NCBI GenBank assembly: GCA_001247695.2
Contig: LGRX02027130.1
Location: 1 to 64,000 of the forward strand
Source: Cymbomonas tetramitiformis
Lineage: Eukaryota > Chlorophyta > Pyramimonadophyceae > Pyramimonadales > Pyramimonadaceae
DNA: 64,000 bases
Reading direction: 5' to 3'
In this document: positions 8,604 through 59,663 of the stretch, one piece after another
Layout of the letters: the number at the start of each line of letters is the position of its first letter
How positions within the stretch are numbered: position 1 is the stretch's first letter
The notes under the pieces: generated by a model
Told to the model about the DNA's origin: nothing
The model's input: the letters and a program-made list of their open reading frames with translations, nothing else
The model's database searches: none
Position numbers and translations under genes: made by a program

Positions 8604-8616
8604 AAGAGGGGAGATC
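8604..8616 (+). promoter_or_regulatory. Polypurine tract (plus-strand primer site)
   Basis: AAGAGGGGAGATC sits immediately 5' of the LTR start TGTCAGGG. The same tract precedes the LTRs at 27588 and 60298 on the minus strand. A purine-rich tract abutting the 3' LTR is the usual primer for second-strand DNA synthesis. Confidence 0.75.
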
Positions 8617-9225: not shown

Positions 9226-9251
9226 TGCGTGCAACCAACGTTCATTGATCG

Positions 9252-9615: not shown

Positions 9616-9712
9616 GTGAGGCTTCGTTCGGCATGCTTGTTTCTGCTTGATTTTCTCCGTACGTCAAGGGTCGGTGCTTCATACGTTCTTTGAGATTTCC
9701 GTCGTCAGGCAG

Positions 9713-16100: not shown

Positions 16101-19100
16101 GAGACCCCATTTTTTATGCCGGTTATGGCTGACTTGGTAAGGTTAATTTTGAGTTCACTCCATCGTGAGAATGTCTCTAGCTTGTGTAGCTGGGCCCGCA
16201 TGTGGAAAATCGTGGGGCATAGTATGAGCAGGTCATCGACGAATGCCCCTGCTGTCGTCCTGAGGGGGCCCAGTCTTTCCTGCTCGGCTGCATGTTTGTG
16301 TTGGTACCCATGCTCCCCCACCTCCAGCCATCTTAACAGTGGTTCCTGGTATATTATGAAGAGGAGGGGGCTCATGCTGTCTCCTTGGAGGAGACCTCTT
16401 TGCACCTGGACCGTTTCGTGAGAAGTTTCCCCCCCTACCCTGGTGTACATTGACATGGTGTCGTGACTTTGTGTACCTAGGACATCTCTCACTACTTGTG
16501 TAAGCTCATCAGGTATCCCAAGGTATTGCATTGTATGTAGCAGCTTGTTGTGGTCCACTGAGCCATATGCATTTTCGAAGTCAACATACAGGCCATGCAG
16601 TTCCCGTCCGGAGACATTTGCATCCTCTATTGCGTTGGTCACTCTCGTAAGTTGTCTGAGTGTGTTTCTTTTCTCTCTGGAGCCTTCCTGTGCCTGGGCC
16701 AGTATCCCCTGTGTTTCGCAGAACGTGGAGAGCATGTTTGCTATTTGCGAGGTGTATAGTTTGAATACTCCCTCCAGTAGGGCTATGGGCCTGTAGTTTT
16801 GCTGCAGGGTGACATCCCCCTTCTTGTGGTGAAAGCAGAATGTCCCTCTCTTCCAGGTGAGGGGGACGTGTTTGCTGTTCCACATCTCCAGCATGAGCGC
16901 ATGCAGGGCATCGTGGAAGTCCTCTGGCATGTACTTGAGAATTTCGTTAGGGGTTCTGGTGGGGCCTGGTGCCTTGTTGTTGTTTAGGGTGTGTACTGCT
17001 TTGCTGTAGCCCTGTCTACTTATCGTGAGGTCCATTCCCTTGGGGTCCGGTCTTGGTGCCTTTACAAGTCGCTCCTTGTGGGCTGGGTCTTCCCATGGTG
17101 GGGTTGCTAGGTCGGGTAGACTCCGGTGTTCCATCCTGTATGGTGCCGAGTGGGCCATGTGTTCCACTAGTGCGTTTGCAATGTTCTTGTGACCCACGGT
17201 TAGGTTGCCCTCCCTGTCCTGTAGGGCCTGTATATTCGCCGTGGGGGCATGGCCTGTTTCTTGTGCCTTGGCATAAATCCTTTTGTGGTACCGTTTCTGG
17301 TTGTTCCAGTATTCTCTCACTGTTTTGTCGTTATGCCTTTGTTTGGCTCGCTTCCAGTGCTGTTTGACCACTTTGTGTGCAGTCGACCTTTCTTTTTTGG
17401 CCTCCTCAGTGAGCCAGGAGACCCATTCCTTTGTGTCTGCGTTGTCCCTGTTTGTCGGGCCTTTTGTTTCTCCTTCCTTCAGGTGGCGGAGAGTGGTGTG
17501 TTCTGTGTGTGGGTTTCGTAGTTGTCGTTTGGTTTTCTTGTGCATCCGCATTTTGAGAATCGCGGCATCTCTTTCTTTTCTGTCCTTTTTGCTCATTAGT
17601 AGGTCCGTTGTCCCATGGGTGGAGGTTCTTCCAGTTATCACTGTCGGTAGCTCCTCATCCTTCAGCGCGCAATTATTTGCTCTGTTGAGTATACTCAGCA
17701 CTGCCTCTCCTGCTCTGTCTATTGTGGCATGTGCCACCTGCTTGTTGCCTTCTTCCCTGCATCGGGTGGCTGTCCCTATTATGTCTTTCAGCTTAGCAGT
17801 CCTGGCATAGTCGTGTGTTCTGAGGAGGACGCTTTGGAGGGTTTCCCTGTGGGCTTTGCTCAGGGGCGTGTTCAGTTTCACTTGCCCTGGGTGGGGGTCT
17901 TGGTCCACGTATGGTTCATGGGTGTCTATGCTGTCTAGCCGAAGGGTCGTAAGGCTAACCATCTCGTGGTCACTCGTGTGGTGCTGAGTGAGGTGTGCGG
18001 TGCTTCCCCTCTCGTATTGGGCCCGTTTGTCCTTCGGTGCTAGCCATCTGTCAATGTTTCTGTTCTCTGCCCAGTTCAGCGTGGTATTTACCGTTGGGCC
18101 TACATTATGGAGGTTCAACTCTTCCGCGAGCTTTTTCCATTGTTTGTCGGTTTTCGTTACCCTCTTTCCTGTGCTGGTGTTGCTTGCATTGAGGTCTCCT
18201 CCAACAATGACATGCTCGTTCGGTTTTTCCGCCGTTCTTCGGAACAGGTTGGCTGTGTACTTAAGTATCTTGTCTCTGGTTTTCCCCTCCTCTGCTCCCG
18301 GTGGGTTGTATATGCCCAGCACGTGGTACATTACTTCCCCGGGCAGGTGTAACACCACATGGAGCAGGTACCCCTCCAGGTGCCTCGCTGGGACTACATG
18401 GTGGTTGTGAGCGTGGCCGTAGGGTTTGCTAAGGAGTATGGCTACTCCTCCTTTCACTGGCTGTTCTGTAGTACTGCCTGCTTCTCTCGCCTCTGTTTTG
18501 GTGCCAATTGCAGTGTACTGCAGGTCTCTGAATTTCCTCATCACACTGTCGTGTGCATGCTTCACTTCCGTGAGCACCACCACTTGTAGGCCCAGTTGGT
18601 TCTGGTGCCTCTTCCTGACTGCCTCTGCTAGGTCGAGGCAGGCGTCACTTTGTCCTGCTATGTTCCATGTGAGCATGTGTAGGCGGTCTTCTCCTATCTC
18701 CCCCTTTTTTGGTTCCGTGAGGGGGGGCTGGTGTTTTCGGGGGTCGCTTGTTTCCAGTGCCTCCTGTTGCACTTCTTCGAATTTCTCCCATTGTGCAGTG
18801 GGTTCATCGCTTGTCTCTTCCCCCCCCTCGTCCGAGTGGGTTTCCATCTTTCCCTGCTCTCCTCGCGTGCGCTCATTGTCCCTTGCCTGGTTCATGGGGG
18901 TCAGTCTATGGAGCCATTTCCATAGTCCCTGTTGCTTTGTGTGTACTTTGTGCCCCCCCTCCTGGGTTCGTGGCGGTTGTGCCCCGGCTTGCGGGTTTGG
19001 GTTTGGGTCGTCAGTGGGTTCCCTGGCCCCTGTTATTTGCTGACTGCCCTCTGACGTTTGCTGTTGTCCTTCGGCGGCAGTTATTCTTTGCTTCACTGTG

Positions 19101-22100
19101 TGCTGTATCGACTTCCTGTAGGCATCCACCGCTGCTCTGTTGGTGGGTCCCCATTTGCTGACCGCCTCATTGAAGTGGGTGGGCCAGTGTCCCTCTGGGC
19201 ATGTTTCCTGGAAGTGCATCCATGCTTTGGTGGCCATCAGGGCCCATACCCCACAGCTGTAGTGGTCTTGTGCGCTTTGGTTGCCTACATTCATTAGTTC
19301 CACTGTTACTTGTCTGCTCAGTTTCCCTGCGAGGTGTTCTGCCCAGTTGGTCATTTCCGTTGTAAGTCGTTTTGTGTTGTGTAGGGTTGCTTTAGTTTTA
19401 CCATTCAAGGAATCATATATCCAGAGCTTAAGTTTGTCGTTTGCTTTGTCTGGTCCCGCCAGCACTACTCTCCAGTGTTTGCCATCGCAGACCGGTATGC
19501 AGAAGCCCCGGGAGTTCCCGAGTAGCTGCAGTGCCTTCGTCGTGTGCGGTTCTTTGTTGTTACCCGGTTTCAGTGTTTCTCTCATTGTGGCTATTACCAG
19601 GGGGGGCAATGGGTCATCTTCATACAGTGAGTGGGCATGTTGCATTTGGAACATGTTCAGTCGGCCCTTCTTTTCGAATAGTCCCTTCGTAGTGGTGTTG
19701 TACGGGTGTATTTCCGTGTGGTTCTGACTCCCCCCACCCGTCATGTTTGTTTTCCAGCACCGGGTGTGCCGCCTCATCCTTTGCTCAATCTCCCGCATTA
19801 GTGGTCTGCCTCTTGTTGGGGTGCCTTCTTTTATCGCAGTTACTGCGTGTTCCGGTCTCCTTGTTCTAACTAGGAAGGGTTTACCGTTACGGTAAATTAT
19901 CCTGAGTAACTTGTAGCCATGGGGTGGTCGTGTCCACCGTGCCGCTGCATTCCTCGCTGTGGTCCGTTTTCTTCGTATTCTGCGGCTACGCGTTATGTTG
20001 TTGCTGTTCGTGTTGTGTGTTCCCCACATGCGACCAGTTTTCCTACTTGTTGTTAGTGTAATTATCAGTATAGCGAGTATCGGGGTTATGGCAAATGCAG
20101 CCTTCCATAGTGGCCTGGTAGCCTCGTGTCGTGCCCCCCTTGGGTAGCGCGGTTCTGCTCCATGTCGTGTTGCTCTCCGGTTGTGTGGTGCTGCTCGCAT
20201 TCGTGAGTTTATGGTTACAGCGTTACATTGCCCTAAATTCCTTTCTGTAACACCCCTAGCACTTTTTCCAGGGTGGGCTCCGTTTTTTGTGTGTATTTTC
20301 GTGGTTGTGTAAAAATTTTGGGGCGTTTGGGCGTGTTTTCCAAAAAAGGTTGTTTTTACGTAGAGCAATTTCGGGAATTCGCTTGTGGTCGAATGTCGGC
20401 AGTTTGCTCTCATTTTTTGTGTGTGGCTGCCTCCCACTCTTCTTAGCATATTCCCAAAGTTTTTCGGCGTTCCTATCATTCTGCTGGCCTGTGTGGAGTC
20501 GGTTGTACCATTATTTGGTAGGGTTTCAGTAGGGTTGGTGCTTATATTGTGGTGGGGGCCCTTTGATTTACAGGGTGGGGGCTCATGTAGCTTGCCCCTG
20601 CTTGTTTGGCATAGTTTCTGGTCGGGGTGCTTGTTTCTACCCCCCCTCACCCGTTTTCGTTGCGTCCATTGTGCTTGTGTTGCCGTCGAGTTAACCGTTA
20701 CAGCGTTACACTGCCCTAAAGTCCCTGATGTAACGCCCTTGACATCTCTTTCTTGGTGGGCCCCCTTTGGTATATGTCGTCCCGTTGATGTGCCAAAATT
20801 TCGGGGGGTTTCGGAATGTTCTGCGAAATTTATCATTTTTACGTAGAGCAGTTTTAGGAATTCGCTTGTGGTCGAAGGTTGGCGGTCGGTCCTGACATTT
20901 CGCACATCGCTTTCCCTTGCTCTGTTGAGCCATCCTACAAAGTTTTTCGTCAACCCTTCCCACCCATCGGGTGCTGTGTGGCCATTTGTGGCCGTCCCTC
21001 TTAGGGTTACTGTAGGGTTCATACCATTATTGCTGGGGTTGCCAGTTATGTGGTGTGAAAAGTGGTTTAAGCTCGTGTTAATTTTTTTATCTTCGTGGTT
21101 ATCTTTGGGGACGTTATAACTGTATATGGTGTGGCCATTCTCGCTGAATATGGTATGGCCATTTCGCCTGTGCTCGGAGGTAGGCATATTAGCACATTTA
21201 TGGGCATGGGGGTCAGCGTAGTAGCTGCAGTTAGGTATATTAGTTTGTAGTAAGTTACCATGGTGAATTGACATTTTCCTTCCGAACGGTGTGTGGTTAA
21301 TGCTCGGTCCCTCGGCGTGGTCGGTGTGGGAAGTGCTTGCCGGGTGCATGCATTCACAGCATTTGTCAGTGGCAGTTGCAATGGCAGGCAGAGACAACAT
21401 AAATATTACTTTGAGTTGTAAGTTCAGGCTAACTTTACTAGGTCTGCTTTCAATATCCCTTCTCTTGCTATGAGGCCCTGCAGCTGGCTCTGTTATGCCA
21501 CCCTGTCTTGCAGGCCTGCTGCTTCCTTGGTCCTCTGCAGCACAGATGTTATTTGTTAGTGCAGTGGGGGTGTGATTCCACTGGCAGGGTGTGGTGGGTT
21601 GTGATGTGAGTTGGTCAGCAGGGCAGGGGGTTGTATGATTACTCACCTTTCTAGTGAGTGGCGGGGCTGATCGGGGGCTCTCAGGTTGTGCCCCCTCCTG
21701 TGCTGTCGCCTGTGCACCCCCTTGTGCCCTCCGCTTCGCCGGTGGCTCGGCGTCGATCGCCCGGCCCCCCGTGTTGGTTGCTGGTCTCTTTGGCGGGGGC
21801 TGGCTCCTCTTGGGGTCGGGTTTCTTGCCAGTGTAGGGGATGCCCCGGTACTGATCGTCCTCCTCTGCAGTCTGTGGTGATTTTTTCGTGAAGTGAAGTG
21901 GATGATCAGGTGCCTGTTGTTTTCCTTCTCCTGTCAGGCGATCGGTGAGTGCCTTGAGGGTGTTCACCATGGCACCACCGGTTTCCTGGTATGTTTTATG
22001 GAAGCCTCTTACCTCTTGAGTGATTTCTGTATGGCGCACCCCAGCGTTGCGCTCCTGTTCTCTGTGCAGGTCTCGGAGTTCGTCCAGTGTGACGGGCTTG

Positions 22101-24244
22101 GACTCGTTGAACCTTTCCAGCTGCTTGTTGATGTTTTTGAGCAGCTTCTTGGTCTCGGGGGTGGGCTGCTTGCTGGTGGCTACGGCCTGCTGGAAGACCT
22201 CGTCGGCTTTTGATCCCACTTTATTGATGAACTGGGAGGCCACCACCTCGGCTATCTGGTCGATTCTTCCCCCACGCGCCTCCCTGCCGCGTGCTGCTCG
22301 TGGGGCTTGACGTTGTTTGGTGCCCGCCCCTTGGGCGCTCCACCTCCCCACCTCAACCGTGATCGAGGTGGAGATGTGTCGGCCAGCGTCGTCTACCCCT
22401 GGCAGTACTCGCACCGTCTGTTTACCCGCCTTGGCGATCGCTTCGTACGCCTCCTCCGAAAGTATGGCGTAGTAGTTGATCGTATACCCACCACCGTTGC
22501 GCTTCCACTGTAGCAGAGACGATGGGTCCCCGGGCGTCGAAGGTGCCCACTGCCGGGACGGTACGTGGAAGTCGAAGATGTTTTCGGTGCCCTTGAGGGC
22601 AGTGGTGTTGGCTGTAAGTTTCTCGATGTGTTCTACGACGGCCTGCACGATGTGGTTTCGGTGATGGTCGTGCAGTATCTGCTTCCTGTCCACGATGGCC
22701 ACTTCCCGGGCTGCGACCTCGTCGCTGACCTCCTTGCTGGGTAGCCAGCAAGTGGTCGTGGCCACACCCCAGGGGTACGGGTGTTGCACGATGAGCTCCG
22801 CTGCAGCCGGTGAGACTGCCTCCAGTAGTATCACCTCCCTGAGGGCTGCGTCTTCCGGAGATTCTCTCACCGTACCTTTGCGGATCCTGTCAACCAGGTG
22901 CCCGAGCTCGTGCCTTGACTCCCGTCTCTCGATGACGGAAGTCGCCAGGATGTTTGAGACCTGCTCGATGGTTTTCCCCTTGAGCAGTGGCCCGTAGACC
23001 AGGACACTGCGTCCTGCTGTCGGCCCTTCCACTGGCTCCCAGGGGGACCATACGTAGATGCAAGGGAGCACTGGCTGCTCCCTTGTGCAGGTTTGATGCG
23101 CCTGCGGCACCACGTGTAGTGGGAGCCGAAAGACTGGGTTAAATAGCACAAAGGCTGCCAGAGGTCTGTTTTGGAAGGCAAGGTCTATTTGCCTGACCCT
23201 GCCCGCACTGTTGAGCCAGATGTGGGTGTGTCGGAGGTCGTACACAACGGCCTCTGGTGAGTCGGACACCTCAAAAAGAAGGGCGTTCAGGTACCGGAGG
23301 TACTTGAGTACTTCCTTGATGCTCTCGTCCAAGTCCACTATTTTTAATTGTGGGGTGCCTGTGTACGGGAAGCCTGTGGGCCCTGTGTCGCTTGGGTCAA
23401 GGCTGCTGCCCGTGACTGATCGCACGTGGGTGAGAGAGAGTCTCTCCCCACGTACCACGGGCACTCCTAGTTTGAAGGCGTGCGCGGGAGGGTCCTCCGC
23501 CACCAGGACCTCCCTGCGGTCGGTGTGCCACTTGGTGGCGATGTGGTAGATTTTGGCTTCCGGGTTTTCCGTGGCCTTAGGACGGCGCTGGTAGATTCGA
23601 GACACCTTTTCCAGCGTGGTCTCTGTGCTCTTTGATGTGGTGTACTCAAGGAGGCTCGGGATGTTGTCAGCTGGGGCTCCGTCGACTTTTCTGTAGTCGA
23701 TGGGCCGGTCCAGCGCCCTTCGCAGCTCCTCTGGCTGGACTTGTGTTTTGTTACCAGATTCAGTCCCCTCGGGGTTTCTGGCGCGGGGGCCGGCAGTGCC
23801 GGGTAGCCCGTCTTCTTGTTTTTTGTTTGTTTTATGTTTTTGCGGGATCGCACTTCCCGCGAAGTGTACCCTCTTGGTCTTCTGTTGTTTGGGTGGCTTG
23901 TCTTCTGCGTGTGTTTTGTCGGTACGTTCCGATGGAACGTCCTTTTCGTGTTGTATGCCTGCCATACCGGTTGCCCGATCAGCTTCCGGAGTGGCGTACT
24001 CTAGCTCGGAGTCGGAGTCCGACATTCCGAGTTCAGTAGATGTTATTTTTGGAGAGTGGTTCGGCTCAGAGTCCAAGTCCGAGCCGTCAGGGCTCTGGTC
24101 GTACTCTGGCATGTTTTCGATTTCAGGTAGGCCAGCTGCTGCTTCCCCTTGCGGTTGGTGATGCTGCCCGCCCACGGTGGTGTTTTGGGTCGATTTGGAT
24201 GAGCCTGCGCACGTCAGTCTGGGTTTGTTAGCGGTTTTGGCCAT
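12980..24244 (-). CDS. Retrotransposon ORF1 giant polyprotein: Ulp1-like protease, APE endonuclease, RT
   Basis: The ATG at 24244 (AAATATGG context, MAKTANK) is chosen because the frame upstream contains only a TTG; it gives 3754 residues. Domains by position: unrecognised N-terminus with coiled coils (24244-21440); a hydrophobic, signal-like segment (about 21425-21370) with a Cys-rich stretch and N-x-S/T sites; a transmembrane-like segment (about 20110-20045). Next is a Ulp1/C48-type protease with His in KHWRVVLAG (about 19480), Asp in YDSLNG, and Cys in HYSCGVWAL (about 19255). An APE endonuclease follows (about 18680-17960: LTWNIAG, GGDLNAS, SDHEMV), then RT (about 16860-16100: YVDFENAYGSVDH, LQGDSMSPLL, catalytic AFVDD near 16240). 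The long tail ends with CPQCHNVQTEIETWW. Confidence 0.85.
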   Translation of the reverse strand: MAKTANKPRLTCAGSSKSTQNTTVGGQHHQPQGEAAAGLPEIENMPEYDQSPDGSDLDSEPNHSPKITSTELGMSDSDSELEYATPEADRATGMAGIQHEKDVPSERTDKTHAEDKPPKQQKTKRVHFAGSAIPQKHKTNKKQEDGLPGTAGPRARNPEGTESGNKTQVQPEELRRALDRPIDYRKVDGAPADNIPSLLEYTTSKSTETTLEKVSRIYQRRPKATENPEAKIYHIATKWHTDRREVLVAEDPPAHAFKLGVPVVRGERLSLTHVRSVTGSSLDPSDTGPTGFPYTGTPQLKIVDLDESIKEVLKYLRYLNALLFEVSDSPEAVVYDLRHTHIWLNSAGRVRQIDLAFQNRPLAAFVLFNPVFRLPLHVVPQAHQTCTREQPVLPCIYVWSPWEPVEGPTAGRSVLVYGPLLKGKTIEQVSNILATSVIERRESRHELGHLVDRIRKGTVRESPEDAALREVILLEAVSPAAAELIVQHPYPWGVATTTCWLPSKEVSDEVAAREVAIVDRKQILHDHHRNHIVQAVVEHIEKLTANTTALKGTENIFDFHVPSRQWAPSTPGDPSSLLQWKRNGGGYTINYYAILSEEAYEAIAKAGKQTVRVLPGVDDAGRHISTSITVEVGRWSAQGAGTKQRQAPRAARGREARGGRIDQIAEVVASQFINKVGSKADEVFQQAVATSKQPTPETKKLLKNINKQLERFNESKPVTLDELRDLHREQERNAGVRHTEITQEVRGFHKTYQETGGAMVNTLKALTDRLTGEGKQQAPDHPLHFTKKSPQTAEEDDQYRGIPYTGKKPDPKRSQPPPKRPATNTGGRAIDAEPPAKRRAQGGAQATAQEGAQPESPRSAPPLTRKVSNHTTPCPADQLTSQPTTPCQWNHTPTALTNNICAAEDQGSSRPARQGGITEPAAGPHSKRRDIESRPSKVSLNLQLKVIFMLSLPAIATATDKCCECMHPASTSHTDHAEGPSINHTPFGRKMSIHHGNLLQTNIPNCSYYADPHAHKCANMPTSEHRRNGHTIFSENGHTIYSYNVPKDNHEDKKINTSLNHFSHHITGNPSNNGMNPTVTLRGTATNGHTAPDGWEGLTKNFVGWLNRARESDVRNVRTDRQPSTTSEFLKLLYVKMINFAEHSETPRNFGTSTGRHIPKGAHQERDVKGVTSGTLGQCNAVTVNSTATQAQWTQRKRVRGGRNKHPDQKLCQTSRGKLHEPPPCKSKGPHHNISTNPTETLPNNGTTDSTQASRMIGTPKNFGNMLRRVGGSHTQKMRANCRHSTTSEFPKLLYVKTTFFGKHAQTPQNFYTTTKIHTKNGAHPGKSARGVTERNLGQCNAVTINSRMRAAPHNRRATRHGAEPRYPRGARHEATRPLWKAAFAITPILAILIITLTTSRKTGRMWGTHNTNSNNITRSRRIRRKRTTARNAAARWTRPPHGYKLLRIIYRNGKPFLVRTRRPEHAVTAIKEGTPTRGRPLMREIEQRMRRHTRCWKTNMTGGGSQNHTEIHPYNTTTKGLFEKKGRLNMFQMQHAHSLYEDDPLPPLVIATMRETLKPGNNKEPHTTKALQLLGNSRGFCIPVCDGKHWRVVLAGPDKANDKLKLWIYDSLNGKTKATLHNTKRLTTEMTNWAEHLAGKLSRQVTVELMNVGNQSAQDHYSCGVWALMATKAWMHFQETCPEGHWPTHFNEAVSKWGPTNRAAVDAYRKSIQHTVKQRITAAEGQQQTSEGSQQITGAREPTDDPNPNPQAGAQPPRTQEGGHKVHTKQQGLWKWLHRLTPMNQARDNERTRGEQGKMETHSDEGGEETSDEPTAQWEKFEEVQQEALETSDPRKHQPPLTEPKKGEIGEDRLHMLTWNIAGQSDACLDLAEAVRKRHQNQLGLQVVVLTEVKHAHDSVMRKFRDLQYTAIGTKTEAREAGSTTEQPVKGGVAILLSKPYGHAHNHHVVPARHLEGYLLHVVLHLPGEVMYHVLGIYNPPGAEEGKTRDKILKYTANLFRRTAEKPNEHVIVGGDLNASNTSTGKRVTKTDKQWKKLAEELNLHNVGPTVNTTLNWAENRNIDRWLAPKDKRAQYERGSTAHLTQHHTSDHEMVSLTTLRLDSIDTHEPYVDQDPHPGQVKLNTPLSKAHRETLQSVLLRTHDYARTAKLKDIIGTATRCREEGNKQVAHATIDRAGEAVLSILNRANNCALKDEELPTVITGRTSTHGTTDLLMSKKDRKERDAAILKMRMHKKTKRQLRNPHTEHTTLRHLKEGETKGPTNRDNADTKEWVSWLTEEAKKERSTAHKVVKQHWKRAKQRHNDKTVREYWNNQKRYHKRIYAKAQETGHAPTANIQALQDREGNLTVGHKNIANALVEHMAHSAPYRMEHRSLPDLATPPWEDPAHKERLVKAPRPDPKGMDLTISRQGYSKAVHTLNNNKAPGPTRTPNEILKYMPEDFHDALHALMLEMWNSKHVPLTWKRGTFCFHHKKGDVTLQQNYRPIALLEGVFKLYTSQIANMLSTFCETQGILAQAQEGSREKRNTLRQLTRVTNAIEDANVSGRELHGLYVDFENAYGSVDHNKLLHTMQYLGIPDELTQVVRDVLGTQSHDTMSMYTRVGGETSHETVQVQRGLLQGDSMSPLLFIIYQEPLLRWLEVGEHGYQHKHAAEQERLGPLRTTAGAFVDDLLILCPTIFHMRAQLHKLETFSRWSELKINLTKSAITGIKNGVSIPEQLHKDLKTVGVDGELSHFKILKPGDTYKYLGVLLAFTGRWDKEKEAAREEMNHRIQALLRSPLTPDQKEYSLHSAILGKFRYGLHLGLYTAGEIDEFNKVIGGATKNIQGLPRNGTPNIFTTQEKERFGLGMVPLQAVYAQAIWSGLLEAMHSEEDRGAVRGPAWRQINLRSRLRMSHVSRSTRGLIEYHCTTRKNCTDLDKLWGGHQTKHNTLRKLNALLRYNITPQGTEGMLEQLQTPVPKIMEQLKGATRRKSDKEMEGTTRKTKAGKMMDGDLPAPPDWQAMYTDQTAKLTVPKDTPTAINFTTCLKLFTHFPDLAFLTTRDGQHAISQVNVREQCTDATLSADRSAIAKGLAHLYPYLCEAQPRNIAKPGDFYDSLTNRRLKQQYRSMPSEGPLDPHTMRTNLPRLNPEQLRAKMTEWEARLVPREEIHRQLSLHPLTRINETETTGQTWGEEQEVPQDFHENPQTKWIDEVDPMARKMEADSFDRGQTIDKPKEIVAMRTLLIDPTDPHSQVTQYRTQWRHPTGEDSYSWSTRETITDFLKLAKRRGQSATTFPTLARRLRARGSQVTHPRGLKEILAGRPHLGRAWPTLHAENLTLDPTETNPGQDIADDREHHCQLRMEGDLAHSYHRNGKYIGTLTKEKLLRLHERYTQAVGTTHHQTPHQRTLRTEMWEDHKIQVSTFEEEIGHLLIRYSSKEEKEERKKNLQNHWTFPAQMQRALQQAFGLNTELFASPLNVHHNTTNYYAKYDRDKVFGARGSAWTANWMKLGAYQFNPEYTPQDLKKALDFAIAATTTQDPVFGVGIYPTYEKTPYRKLYNAHAGHLVHELLEIPQGKFTFLPPDHWMGATHQQAKQCNWNLRVLIVANKAGWQAHCGDPDAAADCIRQALTTCPQSKVRTTTTAKQPAREANQHDKHEPNQKGCTPGTDCIIDTRPWQRYEFPEIKTKDMMDAMGRMCNTMPHIRNDLCPQCHNVQTEIETWWEDGNLHVEDGPAKWELLPGSRGGKWDIHPPHSATGDRSEYLAHQTQKTD
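13039..13046 (-). other. C8 run at the ORF1/ORF2 frame change
   Basis: On the coding (minus) strand eight C residues lie within the ORF overlap. Past this run ORF1 terminates after about 20 codons, while the +1 frame continues into RNase H. Loss of one C would fuse the two ORFs. This is either a programmed +1 shift site, a one-base indel mutation, or a homopolymer sequencing error. Confidence 0.5.
20200..20885 (-). repeat. Internal duplication in the retrotransposon polyprotein
   Basis: Two segments, about 20213-20400 and 20697-20885, are similar at both nucleotide and protein level. Each encodes STTSEF-(L/P)-KLLYVK followed about 45 residues later by LGQCNAVT-(V/I)-NS. The protein duplication lies in the region between the signal-like and transmembrane-like segments. 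Confidence 0.75.
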
Positions 24245-24568
24245 ATTTCTTGCGAGAACGAGTTTGGTGTGCTGGAGGGTTGTTTTCGAGTGTGGTACGA
24301 ACGTGTTTTGGAGCGTGTCTTCGCCCTGCAGGTACAAAAAACCGTTAGCCTGCGTAGGGTGCGAGGCGGCAATGTGACATGTGGGGTGTGGGCGGGCCGA
24401 ATCTGTATGTGTCCGTTGTGTCGTCCGCCATGGTGCCGTTAGTGTGTTCTCTGTGGTGTCGTTATTGCATCCTGCGAGCACAGTTAGTAACAAAATCGCA
24501 TTTTTGAAAATTATTTTTGGGTCCGCGGCTCGGACTAGGTGGCACGCTCAGGCGGCTTCGCGAGAAGT

Positions 24569-31650: not shown

Positions 31651-33950
31651 GGCAGAGGCTATGGTGCTTGCACCGAATCAATATACAATTCTAGTCTGGA
31701 TACAGGCTAGATCAGATGTATACAAATGTCTAGGTCTTCAAAATCAAGCTCATATGTACGTCATGGCTGATGACTTTAGAAATGTTCGATACATATGTGT
31801 GTCAACTTCATGGAGCTCTGTATGGTTCGACTGTATATAGTCACGATTACCAAAACAACAACAATGATGCAACTTAATTGTTTTATTATTTGTCTTTATT
31901 ATTTATTTGGTTTTTAGTTGTATTTTTTTAGCTTGATGGTCACCCAACAGTTATCAGCTGTTATTCGGGTGCCACATCCTGCCTTCTGTACTGGGATTAT
32001 ATCAACCATTCCTACAGCGCGCGATGCACCTGTCCTTCCCACTCTTATGTATGGTTATAGTACCAAACTGTATCAGGCGGGATATATATACATTATATAA
32101 CTATCATCTTCTGATCCAATGATGTGCAATTAAGCATGGTATCAGGTTATATGTTATATATATAATTAAGCATTCCGCCCTTACTCGAAAATGTAAATGC
32201 TGAGCAATAGTCAACTTATAGTCATTGGGATGTAGTTTCCCATCCGAGTTTACACTTTATTAGTGACAATGGGTTTAACGTTGTACAGATTTCAACGTTA
32301 CTTGTGGATGCAGTGGTCTTATCAAAAGAAATCCATCAGAAACCATTATATCGGTATCATCACACATTAATCCTGAGTCTATATAAGTTATAAATAACTT
32401 CTCGGATATGTGTGTATATCTCATCAGCATTTCACTTCACTTCCCCCTTCGAGCGTTCGAGGAAGAGTGAATCACCAGGCAGTTGTTAAGTGCCTATATA
32501 CCTCATTAGGTAGCATGCAATCCTTATATATAGGAAGCAGCTATACAGTTCTTGGGATGTTGTCCTACAGTTCTTGGGTTGTTGCCCGAAATATCAGTCA
32601 TGCATGTGCTGATTTCAGCATGACCATAATGCCAAATGTAGTGTTATTCACTAGTATTTCGTGGCATTTTTTTATGTCACTTTTTTTATTATTTTATATA
32701 TGTATATAAGTCTCAGTGTATACTATGATGTATACATCTGTCACAACTCTGCAATATATCTCATTTGCACACATGAAATTGAAATTAATATTTTCTTCAT
32801 GGTGTTCTGTGAAGATATGTGCATGGCCATTATTTGGGGTTTTACTGATTGAAACCCATGATAAATAGATTAAACCCTAATACATATATGTAAATGTATC
32901 AATAGTGACTTGCAGTCACTTAAGTGATAACTTGTCAGTTGGTTTATTACTTACTTAGGACTGTGAACTCCTTAGATATTCTGCAGCTAGTAGCTGCAGG
33001 CGAGACTTACTCCTCGGTTCGGTCGCCTGTCAGTGGCTGTTGATCACGTTGCCTACCCACGAATGGGTCTGCTGGAGGTCTGCTTTATCTCTTTGGGTCT
33101 ATGACAATACTCTGGATGGCACTACCATCCAGATACTAAGTAACCAGAGCAAATGCCCATAGTAATCAGGTAATTTATCATTTACTTAGGCATATGGCGG
33201 TGCACTGGAAGAGTATCAAAATGATATCTCCAGTTTCTAAGTAAATCAGAACAATGCTTGAACAATCAGAGCAGTGTATGTTTAATAACCTCTATCAGCT
33301 ACATTGTCAGTGTCAAGATGAGTTATGATCTGTGAGATTTATTGAGGTATGCATTGAAGTGACCAGGTACTGAATCAACTGTCAAAATGCATAGTAGATG
33401 ATGGTGTCGCTCCAGCGATAGAGTGAAAGGGCATGGACAGTGTTCAACAGTGACCAGCTGTTTTGTGAACACTGTATACTGCCTTCGGGTCTGGAGATAT
33501 TCTCCATCCAGCCCTTCATCATGTGGATTGATCCTGTTCCCTTATCTATCGCCATCACTGACATCCAACACGCACATGTGTTTGTGGATGGTATCTATGC
33601 ATCATACATGTGATGTTGATATTATACTTGATCATATACACTTACTGACTCAGTGTAATGTCAGTATACATAGTAATGTCAGTGACTATATATTGTGCAT
33701 GTACTTACTGATGGAGTACACTTAAGTAAATTGATATAGATTAATCATACAGGTTTATCTGTATACCAATGGACAGGATATCACAAGTACAATGTATATC
33801 AATATAGTTAGTATACTGCTGTAATCCTGTACATCTCATCATAATGGATGATGAGTTAAGTGGTATATTTTCACAAGTAGCTCTGATGAGTATCCATCTT
33901 GATCAACAGGAGAACAGTTGTCCAATCCCAAATCCTCCGTCATGGACAAC
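31651..33950 (-). repeat. Inverted copy of 50400-52380 and 57152-58600
   Basis: Non-coding. 32100-33950 is similar, in opposite orientation, to about 50400-52380. 31690-32100 matches pieces of 57152-58600. Together these show that copies B and C are two members of one element family facing each other. The junction near 32090 (TATATAATGTATATATATC on the minus strand) is an uninterrupted version of the site where the 52348-57151 element inserted in copy C. Confidence 0.65.
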
Positions 33951-52338: not shown

Positions 52339-52347
52339 TATAATGTA
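52339..52347. repeat. Target duplication, left copy (TATAATGTA)
   Basis: The nine bases recur at 57152-57160 on the other side of the DNA element. The minus-strand copy B has the uninterrupted site at about 32085-32100. Confidence 0.85.
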
Positions 52348-52664
52348 CATTTTACACATCAGACGAGGTTACGAGGTAAAATTTTCGGAATTTCGTCGTT
52401 TTTTTCTACAAACCCGTCAAAACGACCCCTTCATATTGTGCTGATTTCTCCAGTTTCACAAGGGAAATTGTGCTTTGTATTCATGCTTTTTTTGTGGAAG
52501 GGTAGATGTGATAATTCATAATATAGAGCATAATTTTGTGCTCGGATTCTTGCGTTTTAATACAAGCCATATAATCAATTTTTTAAGTCACAACGCATAC
52601 AAATTGCGGGTTATTTCTACTTTAGGCTTCAACCAAGATTGTTGGTACAGGTAGTCAAGGAAAA

Positions 52665-52955
52665 TAGCCGGCTTACAACAAAATTACAATGGACCAACTC
52701 AGTTCGGCAATTGCAGTACCTTAATACTAACGCAGCAAAGCTGCCCCTTCTCGACTCGCACGGAACATTCCTAAGGCAATTCTTACACCTCAATACTAAC
52801 GCAGCGGAGCTGCCCCTTCTCGACTCATGCAAGACTTTCCTCTCGAGTAACACAATCACATCATTATGCCGCGGCTCCTTGCTTGTGGCCACCACGTGCT
52901 GCGGCAAAAGCTGAGTTCTACAGCTCTCCATCCTTTGGGACCTTCCCGCTTACAC
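52665..52955 (+). repeat. Subterminal inverted repeat, left
   Basis: Contains, from outside inward, CGGCTTACAAC, two copies of the CTAACGCAGC-GAGCTGCCCC block, and GGGACCTTCCCGCTTACAC. The right-hand repeat has the same blocks in inverted order, so the two could pair or bind the same protein. Confidence 0.85.
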
Positions 52956-53080
52956 TTTGCCATCTGTTGCTGAGCTTCTCATTCCCGGAAGGTCAACGCG
53001 CCGGACTTCCTTAGCAACTCCGCGGTCAACTCCACATCCGGGTGCACTTGGATGTCCGTCGGCTTAGGTGCTATTTATGT

Positions 53081-53225
53081 CTTAACATTAATGTCAAAAG
53101 TCAGCCGATGCAGCAATATTTCCTGGAAAAACAGTTGATCTCGCCTGTTCTAACATTAATGTCAAAAGTCAGCCGATGCAGCAATATTTCCTGGAAAAAC
53201 AGTTGATCCCGCCTGTTTTAACATT
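53081..53225. repeat. Direct duplication, about 70-bp unit
   Basis: Two nearly identical units contain CATTAATGTCAAAAGTCAGC followed by GATGCAGCAATATTTCC; a third partial start follows. It lies in the leader of the methyltransferase gene. Confidence 0.85.
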
Positions 53226-53587
53226 AATGTCAGAAGTCTGAACTTGCATGGAGTTCTATTTACTGATTGTGTGCTCCTAAAGTTTTCTTTGTTGTCTTTT
53301 AATTTGTTGCAGAGATTTGTTTAGAGGCGTGCGCGCCTTTCAAAGAAGACGTGCAATGAACCGAGAAGCTGAAAGAATTAGGATCAACAGAGAAATTACT
53401 AGACGTAGGCGTAGCATTTTAGACAGGGGGTTTTAAGACTTTTAACATGTATTTTTATTGAAAATTATGTTTGCCTTTCAGCTTTAAATATGTTTGCATC
53501 GACGGCCATGGCCGTCACGCTTTTTACGAACACGCTTTCAACAATGGATGCCATCTCCGTCGTAAAGAAGTCAACGCGGGGGAAAAG

Positions 53588-56500
53588 ATGTTTCAGACAC
53601 ACGATGCTACCATTTTGGACGAGCTTCTTACTCTGGATGAGATTACAACGTTGGCCGTTGCTAAGATCTCTGTGAATGATTCCGGGTCAAAGGCGAGGAC
53701 TTTTTTCCAGGACTACTCAATGTTCAAGTAAGATATTTTAAGTCTTCTGTTAGCTTTTTATTTTTCAACTCTTGGTACTCAGTTTTATTTTTGATGCAGG
53801 TGGAACATCCTGGCCTTTCAAAAGTCCACCAAAAAGAAGGTCAAGTCCACCGACCTTCTGGCTCAGTACCAGAGCCCGGAGTTTGATCAACGATTCTTCA
53901 CTCGGCTTTTGAAGATTCAGGAGTACCTGCAGGACAAGCCGAAGATTGAGGAAATCATCCGCCTCTGCTGCAACGCTCTTGGTAAAGGGTGTTGCCTTAA
54001 TTTTGACTCGTTGTACTCTAACAAGGAGTTGGAGAGGCTCACCCCGGCCCAGCAACTTCTTGTTTTCGAGGAGTGCAAAAAGAGCTTACCTTTCGTGGAG
54101 AACACTGTGGGAGGCGGTGTGAGGAAGATCACGGACAGCAAGAAACTGAAGGCGTTGGAGGGCTCACCAAAGCCTTCTCGGGTCATCACGTCTCCTAGAT
54201 CCTTTACGGATTGCTGTACTGCATTCTGGATGAGGACCAGTACGGTGGCACACATCCATGCCATGGGTGGAAAGGTCACGGACACGGAGAAGGCTACCCA
54301 ATGGATCGATAGCTTGCACGCAGGCAAACTGGACAGTGTTCTGTTGGGAGAGGTACGTATAGCTGTTTGAGGATTAGTTCACCATTCTTTTGTCAACCAT
54401 TAAAAATATTCTTTTAATTTCAGGCGGACAACCTGAAGCCACCTTCGGCTGCAAACACGGGCCGGCTTGGTGGGAAGGAGGACCTTTTCATCAAGAAGGC
54501 GGTGAAGAGGTACATTGACCACTGCCGTTGGAAGGAGGTCAGTGTGGAGACGAACACCCTTTCGGAAGGCGAGGAGGAGCAGGGCGAGTCTGAGGCTGCC
54601 CCGGAGAGTGGATCTGACATGGAGATGGAACTCGATGACTTCAGTCTCTCAGACGAAGAGGAAGAGGACCGAGAGGCCCGACTGAAAAGGAATGAAGATC
54701 GTAAGAAGCTTGAGGAGTTTGAGGCTCGCGCGGAGGCACTCAGCAGGCAGGAGAAAAGGAACCAAGAGTTCAAGGATGAACGGTGAGTGTTGTTGGGTTG
54801 TATATTTAAAAGGTAACCCCAGCACCCACCTCACTTATACACGGTTAAGTGTTTGCAGAAACAAGATGGATGAGATCGCAGCTCAACTCGAGGAAAAGGA
54901 AGCCCATGACAAGGAGGTGGCAGAGAGATTGCAAAGGAAGCTGGAGGAGAAGGCCGCAGAGGTACGGGCGGAGAAAGAGCGGAAGCAGGAGGCAGTAGTG
55001 GAGGAGAAGGAAACGGAAGAGGAAGTTGCTCCCGAGCCACTAGACCTCACCAGCGTGACATTGAACAAGGTGTTGCCCATGGGTGGTGCATTGCGTAATG
55101 GCACGGAGCCATTCTTTGATGAGACACGGTCGGAAGAACTCATGAGTTTCATCGCCGAGCGATGGTCGTCTTTGGAGTACGAGAAGGATTACATCGTGCA
55201 TGTTGTAGTCCGCGCTTCAAATGAAATTGCGAAAGCGGCCAGAGGACAGGCAAAGAAGAAGAAGACAGAAGACGACCCGAAGGTGATGTTCCGACTGCGC
55301 AAACACAAGCTGGCGGGAGCGGTGCAAGACCCCATCGTACTGACATCCCGTGCTATAATTGGAGCAGGTAAGAACTTCACCCCTTGCGGCTATAGTGGTC
55401 GGGGTTTCGGTGAAGTGCGTTCGCGGACTTACAAAGGTTTCCACACACAGGCATTCCCTTACTTACGTTGGTTTTAGGAACGTACGAGGAGATTGGCAAG
55501 GACTTGCATGCCACCTTGATGGAGGGAGTTGGGATCGCGGCGGTCATCACGGACGTGCCGTGGGGTGACGAGAAGGACACCGGGTACAACACGGCTGTTG
55601 ATTGGGGTGCGGCCCTGCGTGCAATAAGCACGATCTACGACTTCAACGCGGCATTGCCGGAGGAAAGTAAAAAGCATGACTTGGGGAAGGCTGATGGTGA
55701 AGCCATTGTGTTTGCAATGGGGGACATCACGGCAATCAACAACATCAACCACGAGGCCACGAAGAACCGTCTGAAGGTACCTTGGTCATTTTCCTGATTG
55801 AATGAATATGAACTTAACCCCGGATCACATTTGGACGTTGTTGTTTGAACAGGTGTACAAGAACATGCCGGGCTTTGTGTTGTTGGATGGAGTACGGCAG
55901 ACGGAGGTCCGAGGGAACACACCGGTTGCTTCGGGGCACCTGTACACGACACTGGCACGCTCGCTGAACAAGCCAAAGCTAGACTACAGGAAGGCGGTGG
56001 TGGCCCGCGCACCAGATCTTGTGGAACTTGCTGGAGTGAAAACTCTAACCAATTTCTTTTGTGGAAATGTTCTGGGCCCTTTGTCGGTGACTGAGTACCA
56101 AGCCTTGGAGAAGACCATTGAGGACAACGTCAAGGCCCATGGAGCCGCGGAGAACTGGTCAACCAAGAAGACTTCTGATGCGGTGAAAACCATTTGTGAC
56201 GAAGCCATGGAGGAGTTCCAGGAATATGCCCTTCCCTTCCAGGCCTTGCATTCTACCGGCACATTCAAGCATAACTGTCACGTTGCTGGTTGTGCCGCGT
56301 TGAAAGGACCTTGCCACGAGCTTGGGAAGACCCTGGTGGTGGGACAGAAGAGTGTGGAATTGGGGGAGTTCTTGGTGGAAAGGTACACCTCTTCTGGTGG
56401 GCAGGTGGTGATGGACCCATTCATGGGGTCCGGCAGCGCGGGGGTAGTGGCCCTACGCAAGGGACGCTGCTTCCTTGGATACGAGCAGAAACAGACGAAC

Positions 56501-56593
56501 TTTTTGTCAGCCGTTTTCCACCTGAGCAGCGCCCTGCAAAAGATGGTGGAGGGTGACGAGGAGTATGTCCTCCGCAAGTACGAGGCGCCTTAG
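53588..56593 (+). CDS. Six-exon amino-group DNA methyltransferase (N6A/N4C type)
   Basis: Exons 53588-53727, 53800-54352, 54424-54782, 54859-55367, 55478-55776 and 55853-56593 join with consistent phases through GT-AG introns to give 866 residues. The first in-frame ATG of exon 1 (MFQTHD) is used; an upstream acceptor at 53482 could add residues. The N-terminal third is helical and unrecognised, then an acidic coiled-coil stretch (DMEMELDDFSLSDEEEEDRE onward). Motif IV-like AAVITDVPWGD lies at about residue 546 and the SAM motif VVMDPFMGSGSAGVVALRKGR at about 805, followed by GYEQKQTNF. Motif IV before motif I is the beta-class order of bacterial and phage N6-adenine/N4-cytosine methyltransferases. 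It presumably methylates DNA; substrate base is unknown. Confidence 0.85.
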
Positions 56594-56616
56594 GACCTTC
56601 TTGCTATTTTGGCCAC

Positions 56617-56890
56617 GTGTAAGCGGGAAGGTCCCAAAGGATGAAGAGCTGTAAGATTCAGTTTTTGCCGCGGCACGACTTAGCCAACAGCCGATGCAGA
56701 ATAGAAGCCTAACGGGAAGGTCTTACGCGAGTCGAGAAGGGGCAGCTCCGCTGCGTTAGTATTGAGGTGTGAGAATAGCCTGAGGAAAGTTTTGCGCGAG
56801 TCGAGAAGGGGCAGCTCCGCTGCGTTAGTATTGAGGTGCAAAAATTGCCAAACTTGATTTGTCGTTTGTAATTATGTTGTAAGCTGGCCC
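56617..56890 (-). repeat. Subterminal inverted repeat, right
   Basis: Mirrors 52665-52955. Two copies of GGGGCAGCTCCGCTGCGTTA lie about 76 bp apart (56743 and 56809). Confidence 0.85.
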
Positions 56891-57151
56891 ACAGAAAAGT
56901 CATAATGTTGTAATTATGTTGTAAGCTGTCACATAGAAAAGTCATAACGTACTCAAACGGAATAAAATATCAAGGGAGTCTCATAAAATACTTTTTTCAA
57001 GAAACGTATACAATAAAATTCTCCAATTTTTAGGGCCGTTTTAACCAGTTGTATTCATGGGTCCTTCACAGTGGTGGCATTATTAAACCACGTATAATTT
57101 TGAAAATCTCGGGTCCTCGTAACCTCGTAACCTCGTCAGTTTTGAAAGTTG

Positions 57152-59663
57152 TATAATGTATACATATATATCCCACCTGATACACTTTGGCACTATAGCC
57201 GTACATAAGAGTGGGAAGGACAAGTGCATCGCTGTAAGACTGTTTGATATAGTCCCAGTGTTGAAGGCAGAATATGGCACCCGAATAACAGCTGATAACT
57301 GTTGGTGACCACCATGCAAGACCTTCCAAGCGTAACTCCTTTGTCCTGAGATGCAAGTGAATTGTTCATAATATGTTGACATCACATAAAAGCATTCTGA
57401 TAAAAACCCTATATATTCACATGAGTTGTCATCATTACAAATGACATGGGTTTTGAATCGTCGAAATGAGTATAACTCCGATGAATTCATTAGTACAGAA
57501 TAGTTGTTGAGATTATTCCTCCGGCTGGAATGCAATCATTCACAATCCTTGTACATTCCGGTGACAAAATATTGCATTGGACTGATCACCACATTTGGTA
57601 TAATCTGTGATATATAAGTCACCAGAGAAAGCATTGAATCAGCACAATGTTGTCTAGACTCACAAAGATGAGTAACAGATATTCTCAGATGTAATAAATA
57701 GAGGCACAATGTGACCTACGCTAAAATCGCGTATGCTCGGGCACTGTATTGTGACCTGCGCTGAGATCGCGTATGCATGGACACAATATGACTCGTGCCA
57801 ATGACGTGGACACAATTCATACAACCTCCGGTACAATCGGACAAGGTTGACTGCCACGACATCACATCTGAAATCAATAAATCACTCAGAGAGAAGGTGT
57901 TGACATCAGTATAGCACCATTATACATATAGTCATGAGGATTTTAAAGAAGACACAGTCTCTCCGATATTGACAAACATGGTACACATATTACCATGCTC
58001 TCTGATTATATATTGATATCCCACAGCATACGATGATGGTAATAGCAAACCACTTCGCCGCGGGAGGGTAGTGTTGTATATATACAGCACATGCTTGGGC
58101 ACTATATCACCCACGCTGATGACGTGAATTCGGGCTGCATCCCAAAGACTGCGATGCACCTTTGGTGCAATGGGCTGCAACCCGAGAGTTGCTATCCAGC
58201 TTCATAGTAAGCTATCCCGTCATCACATAGAGGTCGGACCTCTGTTGTATTTAAACGGCGCTTGACAACCGCCTAGCAATACACTTCCTTGAGGGGGGAA
58301 GATGATAAGCTAAAAATACAACTAAAACCAAATAAATAATAAAGACAAATAATAAAATAAAACAATTAAGTTGCATCATCGTTTTTGCTTTGGTAAGCCT
58401 GACTATATACAGTCAAACCATGCAGAACTCCATGAAGTTGACACATATAAGTATCAAACATTTCTAAGGTCATCAACCATGACATACATATGAGCTTGAT
58501 TTTGAAGACCTAGACATTGTATACCTCTGGTCTAGCATATATCCAGACTAGAATTGTTTATTGACACGGTGCAAGCACTATAGCCTCTGCCACCGATGAT
58601 CATTGAAAAAGGGCAACCATTCTTGATATTTCATATATATCATCTGATTGGATCATTAAAGGTGTCAAGATTACTCAATGCAATATGCAGGCTACGGCCT
58701 GAGTACAACACCTAGATAGGTCAAAGCCACTGAGCTGACCAATGCAGCATAAATGCTAACTGCCTTTGAAGGCTACATAATAAGCCTATTGCCCTTATGT
58801 CTTGAAATGTATCCGTGTATTGGCATCTCTTTGAGGTAATCATACCTGCCGAATGAGCCATACCAACCATCTTGTATTCATGGATCATTACATATCTGAT
58901 CATACCGCCATTGAACAAAGCCTATGCAGTGAGATTATTATATCACAAGGCATTTCAGTGGTACGCATCAAACAATTGCATTGCAGCAAAGATCATCAGC
59001 TCTTCATCATACCTAAAGGTTGAGTTGTTGTCAAAAGTATTGATTCATCAGACTCCATTTCTCAAAGGTCTATCATGGAGGACAGAATCTGTGCAATCAT
59101 GGCTATTCAGCCTCCAACATAGCTAACATAGCTATCCAGCTTATGACCCAACCGTTGTTAAGCAGCCTCCACGCCATATGGCTAAAAGATGGCAAGCAAT
59201 CTCTTCGGTCATTCTTGGGCATAGAGCAATCAAGCACAGCCAGTTCAAGATGTTTATCCCGAGATTCTCCAAGAATTACTCATGTTTTCCATGTGTCATT
59301 TGAAAATAGCCAATATACCGCCCTATGATGGGAGTCATCTCCTTCAGCGAGGGGAAGTGGTTATGCTGTAAAGTTGACCAATCTGATCATCACAAAAGTG
59401 ACAGATTTGAGAAAATCGATTGAAACTTGTATTGAAATGAATTCCTTACAATAAGGTATTGCACCTAAAGGAATAAAGGTTTCATCGTCTGAAATAGGAA
59501 AAGAGTTTTACATTGACTCTAGTTCCTGAATCCAGAATCACATAGTCTATCCTATGCATATAAAAAGTACATTAGATTCGGATTCTGAGTTTACAAGTGG
59601 ACTTGAATGCACTCGGGTTTGTACTGAGTTGCAATTGTCCAAAGTTTTTATTCTGACATCACT
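57152..59663 (+). mobile_element. LTR element C, continuation (rearranged pol)
   Basis: Resumes the element split at 52347. 57152-57315 and 58305-58600 match copy B (inverted, 32100-31690). 57316-58304 is an extra 1 kb absent from copy B and shows no gene. 58590-58790 is a pol chromodomain relic and 58960-59330 an RT relic, in that order. The copy is cut at 59663 by the start of LTR D. Confidence 0.6.
58960..59330 (+). pseudogene. Degenerate gypsy RT fragment (copy C)
   Basis: Scattered frames match 5590-5870 of the pol gene (for example KQSLRSFLGIE and AAKIISSSSYL as a shifted reading). Multiple indels and stops make it non-coding. Confidence 0.7.

Follow-up and report, generated by a model that had tools for sequence, protein, structure and literature searches.

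The genome of the green alga Cymbomonas tetramitiformis carries a DNA transposon that encodes its own predicted beta-class amino-methyltransferase. One copy of this mobile element occupies positions 52348-57151 of the window, positions 1-64,000 of contig LGRX02027130.1, and is an internally deleted form of a ~9.7-kb element with two genes. The explanation we favor, with moderate confidence, is that the element is a recently active two-gene transposon with a selected methyltransferase that regulates itself through its own DNA, and that the window copy has had its probable transposase gene deleted. Published transposons carry genes for demethylating (TET/JBP) or histone-modifying (SET) enzymes, for 5-cytosine methyltransferases or for Dam-type enzymes (DIRS). 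In the literature searched we found no nuclear DNA transposon bounded by terminal inverted repeats with a bacterial-type amino-methyltransferase as its selected core.

Table 1. Features of the element copy, its flanks and its empty site in the window.
Feature	Position	Strand	Remark
Uninterrupted paralogous target (empty site)	31931..32342	-	alignment of joined flanks
Left target-site duplication TATAATGTA	52339..52347	.	exact 9 bp
Left terminal inverted repeat	52348..52376	+	29 bp, core GACGAGGTTACGAGG
Left subterminal inverted repeat	52667..52962	+	~69-bp tandem units within
Internal deletion junction	53076..53078	.	4,929 bp (element positions 730-5658 of the C15249 copy) swapped for one filler base
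Palindromic site 1 of 3	53080..53099	+	
Palindromic site 2	53148..53167	+	68 bp after site 1
Palindromic site 3	53216..53235	+	68 bp after site 2
Possible alternative terminal exon	53313..53436	+	40 Arg-rich codons and a stop; phase matches that of lost exon 1
Methyltransferase coding exon 2	53482..53727	+	exon 1 deleted in window copy
Methyltransferase exon 3	53800..54352	+	
Methyltransferase exon 4	54424..54782	+	acidic stretch, start of long charged helix
Methyltransferase exon 5	54859..55367	+	
Methyltransferase exon 6	55478..55776	+	motif IV TDVPWG; with an in-frame upstream acceptor the exon would start at 55451 and gain IPLLTLVLG, present in P0001 and P0002
Methyltransferase exon 7	55853..56593	+	motifs X and I (DPFMGSGS), through stop
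Right subterminal inverted repeat	56610..56888	-	
Right terminal inverted repeat	57123..57151	-	
Right target-site duplication TATAATGTA	57152..57160	.	exact 9 bp

The earlier note, made from the sequence alone, had proposed a mobile element at this place, and the signs of one were recovered (Table 1). The 9-bp duplication it described is present at both ends, the subterminal inverted repeats it put at about 280 bp are identical in 235 of 297 aligned columns, and the uninterrupted target it located near 32085-32100 aligns with the joined flanks of the element through the junction (87.7% over 416 bp). The tips are inverted as claimed, though not over a clean 21 bp; the 29-bp terminal repeats are imperfect and share a perfect 15-bp core. 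Tips at 8 other left ends resemble the left tip.

Genome-wide, at least 34 loci match the element with 97-100% identity, many of the copies being partial, so it is not the single-copy sequence that the note had named as a refutation. Other copies with 9-bp duplications, which it had suggested looking for, do exist: wherever both ends of a copy were read, the duplications are perfect (7 of 7). The complete element (C15249 copy) is 9,732 bp long with its two genes on divergent strands. A single internal deletion removed from the window copy both the second gene (element positions 632-4290) and the first coding exon of the methyltransferase gene (element positions 4672-4958). The earlier view of the methyltransferase as the only recognizable gene of the element is not borne out, and of the proposed intact six-exon gene the six exons with GT-AG borders encoding 866 aa stand while the intactness does not. 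Full-length relatives are 997, 1,002 and 1,011 aa, so the start codon assigned at 53588 is internal. In the C20523 copy all four exons of the putative transposase gene are missing and all seven methyltransferase exons are open. Besides C15249, 4 of 4 full-length copies checked exon by exon have a frameshift in the methyltransferase gene, which is either decay or assembly error. Deleted copies like that of the window may be mobilized in trans.

The 866-aa protein matches the Pfam profile N6_N4_Mtase (PF01555) with 39 bits, and the PF01555 scores of 39, 36.6 and 43 bits are all above the curated cut-off of 26.7. The motif order DVPWG - QKSVEL - DPFMGSGS (IV ... X, I) holds in an alignment with two methylases from a viral contig, consistent with the beta-class order read from the sequence earlier, and the enzyme is predicted to be a beta-class amino-methyltransferase. 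The catalytic motif of this class is (D/N/S)PP(Y/F/W). Motifs IV, X and I are present at all five loci checked (L001, L002, L038, L039 and L040), motif IV being DVPW(G) in each with the canonical second proline absent. Likewise, the two viral-contig methylases read DLPYG, with no proline at the second position. At the 3 loci where the methyltransferase matches viral contigs, the match spans its C-terminal motifs only, and two methyltransferase peptide patterns, a narrow test, found no relative in prokaryote genomes (32 stretches).

The N-terminal part of the methyltransferase is large and conserved. Structure prediction for the protein gave a low-confidence model (mean pLDDT 38.0), with one long helix at about residues 431-520 alone reaching block means of 67-84. 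Against PDB sequences the N-terminus had only chance-level forkhead matches, with no ParB among them. By eye it resembles ParB (NPR ... VDGHGR), in a region where the predicted structure has a pLDDT <50. No Pfam ParB match was found at E up to 10, and a ParB/sulfiredoxin-fold reading of the N-terminus, upheld by no profile, is a lead only.

The second gene of the full-length copies has four exons, encodes 1,135 aa and is divergent from the methyltransferase gene. Its putatively SWIM-type product is probably the transposase, judging from motifs read by eye. YSDxGHS, VRDSGGGGW, DCxxH and GANLxE are conserved in that order, and D454, D542 and E671 (P0003 numbering) are the by-eye candidates for the DDE residues. 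A SWIM-type C-x-C-x18-C-x-H pattern is shared by P0003, P0005 and the window-family protein and absent from P0004. Pfam reported no SWIM match; its only hit to the window-family protein was TANGO6_N at a chance-level E of 0.25, with nothing above cut-off for this protein or for P0003, P0004 and P0005. NCBIfam and PDB sequences yielded no match, and the predicted structure is likewise of low confidence (mean pLDDT 29.7). The homologues recovered in searches that each scored ~8,000 candidates were Cymbomonas proteins, the ENA protein P0005 and a short NCBI protein, P0007. A transposase had been suspected in the N-terminal 500 residues of the methyltransferase; the candidate is a separate gene in the part lost here. 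The earlier note had also named a standard transposase deleted from this copy as a finding that would refute its reading. This is largely what was found, a separate gene having been lost by deletion, but no profile recognizes its product as a standard transposase.

Two more diverged families and one close relative have the same two genes in divergent arrangement. For the methyltransferase, NG86 dN/dS values against the window family are 0.140/1.817 (C3719) and 0.167/1.904 (C16527), and 0.134/1.912 between C3719 and C16527. The ratio between diverged families is ~0.07-0.10, where dS exceeds 1.4. The putative transposase gene has an NG86 dN/dS of 0.116/0.987. In the C328 relative, in which the palindrome array and exon 1 are absent (rearranged there), the methyltransferase ratio is only ~0.3 (0.030/0.101). 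On these substitution rates the methyltransferase is under purifying selection between diverged families. Because it is both selected in this way and kept beside the other gene in three diverged families, the methyltransferase belongs to the element, as first claimed, and the comparisons indicate a long-maintained, selected component.

A 20-bp palindrome, TTTTRACATTAATGTYAAAA, is repeated in arrays within intron 1 of the methyltransferase gene, and three families conserve it. In two of them the sites are spaced exactly 68 bp; in the third, the C15249 copy keeps mostly to this spacing and has 12 sites, against the 3 left in the window copy. The array arose in 0 of 50 shuffles of the element, and a two-site palindrome pattern had no exact match in viral contigs. 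An alternative terminal exon is conserved between two families other than that of the window and would yield a short basic isoform without the methyltransferase part. The possible window-family exon has no detectable similarity to these counterparts.

Most likely, we infer, the element resists silencing by modifying and regulating its own DNA. An element-encoded protein would bind the palindromes in intron 1 of the methyltransferase gene, the methyltransferase would then modify element DNA at or near them, and the element would in this way regulate its own two genes and resist host silencing. A broader and less probable possibility is a new lineage of eukaryotic DNA transposons. Its transposase would lie outside all profiled superfamilies, its DNA-modification module (the methyltransferase, whose N-terminal half may be ParB-like) would act on the 68-bp-phased palindromes in its own intron, and the short spliced isoform would be a competitor. 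If true, the transposon would carry a self-contained epigenetic switch. The question of whether a transposon marks its own DNA, and for what reason, could be addressed here: the alga is in culture, numerous young copies exist, and 6mA and 4mC can be read straight from native long reads. The conserved palindrome array is a specific candidate site for the mark.

Other roles for the methyltransferase can be weighed against self-regulation. It might serve transposition by marking the donor or newly replicated ends, or by coupling the timing of transposition to replication, a role that Dam has in some bacterial transposons. Its position next to the putative transposase gene in each family examined would fit such a role, but the conserved palindromes are in the intron and not at the tips, and we think this unlikely. 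The enzyme might also be catalytically dead and instead regulate by binding DNA, by way of its conserved N-terminal region and the palindrome array. The non-canonical DVPWG, the size and conservation of the N-terminal part and the methyltransferase-free isoform predicted in two families all point that way; retention of motifs IV, X and I at every locus checked and the DLPYG of the viral-contig methylases argue against it, and we consider a dead enzyme improbable.

Mutator-like elements are prone to picking up host gene fragments (PMC6446971), and the methyltransferase could be such a captured, Pack-MULE-like passenger with no role in the element. A passenger would decay, yet this gene is conserved and selected, with the pair recurring in three diverged families and the dN/dS given above even at high dS. 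Capture is therefore largely refuted and very unlikely. More doubtful still is that the element is an endogenous virus and not a transposon. The host genome is rich in integrated viruses, including many polinton-like virus (PLV) insertions (PMC10675990), but neither gene product has a capsid or polymerase match, and two putative-transposase peptide patterns (a narrow test) found no relative among 78 stretches of viral contigs. The element is also 9.7 kb, against 15-25 kb for PLVs in the Cymbomonas genome (PMC10675990).

Among known transposons, MULEs have target-site duplications of 8-11 bp (PMC6446971), and the element has 9-bp duplications and terminal inverted repeats. MULEs, among them VANDAL elements, which have accessory genes, and the SET-carrying MULEs of Phytophthora (PMC6446971, PMC12730594), resemble it in these duplications, the inverted tips, a second gene that is often antisense and the SWIM-type Cys/His pattern, where that pattern is present. 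Unlike them, the element has no MULE profile match, its candidate DDE is by eye only, and its accessory gene encodes an amino-group DNA methyltransferase. The main text of PMC6446971 nowhere uses the word methyltransferase. We did not assign the element to the MULEs, given a putative transposase without a profile match whose motifs were read by eye.

The enzyme itself shares the motif order IV-X-I with phage and bacterial PF01555 methyltransferases, some of which are fused to ParB-fold domains (PMC12704722). Many of these match the motif X/I region at ~40-50% identity over some 50-90 residues. The element's enzyme differs in being ~1,000 aa long and multi-exon. Similarity lies only beyond residue 786 among the matches listed (20 of 196 phage, 3 plasmid), and with E values of up to 10 allowed, an N-terminal 213-aa piece had no match in the phage records.

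Mobile elements with their own DNA methyltransferase include SymbioLINE/DIRS-Dnmt and Dam-type DIRS elements (de Mendoza 2018, PMC5890265). Those are mainly retrotransposons, whereas ours is a nuclear DNA element bounded by terminal inverted repeats with a beta-class N6/N4 enzyme. The same paper mentions, citing another source, DNMT-encoding DNA transposons in marine viruses. Fungal TET/JBP-encoding DNA transposons (Kojima 2025, PMC12730594) likewise place a DNA-base-modifying enzyme beside a transposase in several lineages. Their enzymes oxidize 5-methylcytosine, whereas that of the element is predicted to methylate amino groups, and the element resides in a green alga with 9-bp duplications, compared with 8 bp for Zisupton (PMC12730594).

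The window element (52348-57151) has the exact ends described in the earlier note, with a 9-bp duplication, TATAATGTA, at 52339-52347 and 57152-57160. The uninterrupted target was also recovered, as the joined flanks match 32342-31931 continuously (87.7% over 416 bp), an empty site. The tips are inverted, though instead of a clean 21 bp they span 29 bp, imperfectly, with a 15-bp perfect core. The proposed subterminal inverted repeats have 235 identities in 297 aligned columns. Diverged paralogous blocks, about 77-90% identical and in both orientations, lie at 7.4-9.2, 27.1-32.4, 52.1 and 58.3-64 kb, and the element is inserted beside them.

To find other copies we surveyed 851,713,466 bases in 25,745 contigs; a published long-read assembly of the species has 914.3 Mb in 35,945 scaffolds according to an excerpt of PMC10675990. 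Copies at 97-100% identity occupy at least 34 places, counting the one in the window; several of these are partial or reach a contig end. A 35th place matches at 92%. Copy numbers are lower bounds, with 34 of 1,353 first-look candidates scored. As anticipated, other copies carry 9-bp duplications: the duplication is perfect in all seven copies with both ends read (the window copy, C18095, and those in contigs C15249, C12932, C25340, C17626, C6353 and C13742). The C12932 copy lies within a further copy of about 94% identity, in its methyltransferase gene. At one end of the C3719 copy (L038, C3719:6500-13500, locus bases ~590-680) two element tips meet head to head, as though a further element adjoined this copy.

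The window copy is almost certainly a deletion derivative of a two-gene element. Positions 1-729 of the element match 1-729 of the 9,732-bp copy at C15249:40102-49833 (98.9% identity) and 731-4803 match 5659-9731 (99.9%); the window copy therefore lacks 4,929 bp. One filler base and no microhomology mark the junction. Left ends were located in eight other copies (C15249, C12932, C25340, C17626, C6353, C25220, C20523 and C13742), and the junction is absent from all eight. Exons of both genes adjoin seven of these ends; C20523 has a different deletion, with edges at about el 827 and 4058 (el, coordinate in the C15249 copy). Two copies fall outside the count, their left ends not being found: the second gene of C25359 is interrupted, and C13294 has el 5664-9731 only. 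Counting inwards from the same tip, the upstream flanks of C12932, C25340, C17626, C6353 and C25220 have about 5.1-5.2 kb in common with that of C15249; those of C20523 and C25359 contain the C15249 flank in pieces only.

The methyltransferase is thus not the element's only gene as the earlier note had it, since part of what the window copy lacks encodes a second. The six methyltransferase exons in the window do splice to 866 aa, but the gene is not intact, the first coding exon being missing (Table). The relatives P0001 and P0002 (1,002 and 1,011 aa) both start with this exon.

Table. Features of the two-gene element and palindrome arrays in intron 1
Feature	Position	Strand	Description
Second gene (putative transposase)	el 632-4290	minus	4 exons, 1,135 aa; within part missing from window
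Methyltransferase first coding exon	el 4672-4958		spliced in phase to exon at window 53482, giving 997 aa; missing from window
C15249 array			12 sites; spacing 68 in 8/11, else 64, 125, 61
C3719 array			12 sites; spacing 68 in 11/11
C16527 array			9 sites; spacing 68 in 8/8
C25220 array (window family)			13 sites; spacing 68 in 5/12, else 66-70 and 136
C20523 array (window family)			9 sites; irregular spacing
C19017 and C13742 arrays (window family)			4 sites each

In C15249 each gene has a full open reading frame. Among the other full-length copies, C12932, C17626 and C13742 have an open second gene with one or two methyltransferase exons frameshifted, and C25220 has one frameshift in each gene; C25340 and C6353 were checked in part. 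The start of exon 1 does not align for the first 8 bases in C17626 and the first base in C25220. These exon defects may be assembly errors or decay. Five copies without exon 1 in the sequence covered (C7792, C20786, C2199, C12105 and C13294) have the other six exons free of frameshifts; in four of the five the contig stops there. The copy at C20523:36377-42945 has no second-gene exon, and each of its seven methyltransferase exons is open.

Both genes also occur together in C3719 (P0001/P0003 family), in C16527 (P0002 family) and in C328, which is closely related to the window family; in C328 the intergenic part is rearranged and no exon 1 was found. NCBI names P0001, P0002 and P0003 (a second-gene homologue) Cymbomonas tetramitiformis. 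In the genome, residues 619-1143 and 1-255 of P0003 are matched at 100% and parts of P0001 and P0002 at 98.8-100%; longer parts that span introns score 84-93%. Nei-Gojobori dN/dS for the window-family methyltransferase is 0.140/1.817 against C3719, 0.167/1.904 against C16527 and 0.030/0.101 against C328 (873-936 codons after dropping poorly aligned stretches), and 0.134/1.912, 0.143/1.442 and 0.172/1.648 among those three (774-862 codons). The ratio is about 0.3 for C328 and about 0.07-0.10 for diverged pairs, the latter approximate because dS values over 1 approach saturation and YN00 failed for five of six pairs. The second gene gives 0.116/0.987 over 936 codons between the window and P0003 families. 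The methyltransferase is very probably a selected component of the element; putative self-modification, for regulation or anti-silencing, we rate at even chances.

A PF01555 match above cut-off upheld the amino-group assignment. Alignment with a methylase of a viral contig (DLPYG, QKPVDL, NSMGSGS) gives the motif order TDVPWG, QKSVEL, DPFMGSGS, which places the enzyme in the beta class; its predicted target is either N6-adenine or N4-cytosine. P0001 matched 11 PHROG families with E values of 1 or less, phrog_18293 being the best (4e-12), through the C-terminal motifs. By eye, the first ~130 residues (NPR ... VDGHGR) resemble a ParB/sulfiredoxin fold, a lead that Pfam, PHROGs, PDB and tblastn left unsupported when the N-terminus was profiled separately (best PHROG, function unknown, E 0.048). 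Phages fuse this fold to PF01555, according to an excerpt of PMC12704722. A candidate in-frame alternative acceptor at 55451-55477 would add IPLLTLVLG, identical in P0001, P0002 and the window family.

Intron 1 contains an array of a 20-bp palindrome, TTTTRACATTAATGTYAAAA (sites counted with up to 3 mismatches). It was absent from 50 shuffles of the C15249 element, and C328 has no site in the sequence covered. The window keeps the last three sites (53080-53235), one mismatch each; none of 100 shuffled windows contained three. Compared between families, the palindrome is identical at 18-19 of 20 positions, and the other 48 bases of the unit score close to shuffled controls (a value as high as that observed arose in 62, 6 and 8 of 300 shuffles); the 6 and 8 are compatible with weak residual similarity. 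There is good support for constraint on the site, and inherited unit length could account for part of the shared spacing. Between array and exon 2, C3719 and C16527 contain a segment of 72 and 89 codons, respectively, that is open in the phase of exon 1 and finishes with WMLDSQW before a stop. Their alignment scores 145, whereas no score exceeded 5 in 300 shuffles and the other two phases give 20 and -14; dN is 0.50 and dS 3.38. Exon 1 with this predicted alternative exon would encode a short basic protein lacking the methyltransferase. The window-family segment (53313-53436; 40 codons, Arg-rich) resembles the other two no better than shuffles.

Other elements lie in the window. A 3,854-aa uninterrupted frame (12986-24547, minus strand) encodes a LINE-type endonuclease and reverse transcriptase, with RNase H at 10600-13185 in another frame. 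Near the C-terminus of the 3,854-aa frame is a PCIF1_WW domain (PF12237, E 6.5e-16), the family to which the cap m6Am methyltransferase PCIF1 belongs. This is a second mobile element in the window with a methyltransferase-related domain. At 5419-7203 (plus strand) lies part of an LTR-retrotransposon pol region, with RT, RNase H and an integrase zinc domain.

The second gene probably encodes a transposase. The protein and the homologues tried gave no Pfam match above cut-off, no NCBIfam match and no PDB sequence match. P0003, P0004, P0005 and the window family have in common the ordered motifs YSDAGHS/YSDGGHS, VRDSGGGGW, DCxxH, GANLxE and C-x-C-x18-C-x-H, except that P0004 lacks the last and P0005 begins after the first. 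P0006, a gene model fused to an RNase H gene, is missing most of them. Read by eye, the motifs would be D, D, C-x2-H, E and SWIM, the pattern of Mutator transposases.

Among the open-access full texts listed as matches, none evidently dealt with an N6/N4 methyltransferase encoded by a DNA transposon. The element's novelty is lowered by an excerpt of PMC5890265 that refers to Dam-type DIRS retrotransposons and, in marine viruses, to DNA transposons bearing a DNMT. We do not class the element as Mutator-like, because its putative transposase matches no profile above cut-off and the motifs were read by eye. Those motifs, together with 9-bp duplications and a second gene in antisense, are the reasons for suggesting, by criteria taken from an excerpt of PMC6446971, that it works like a Mutator-like element.
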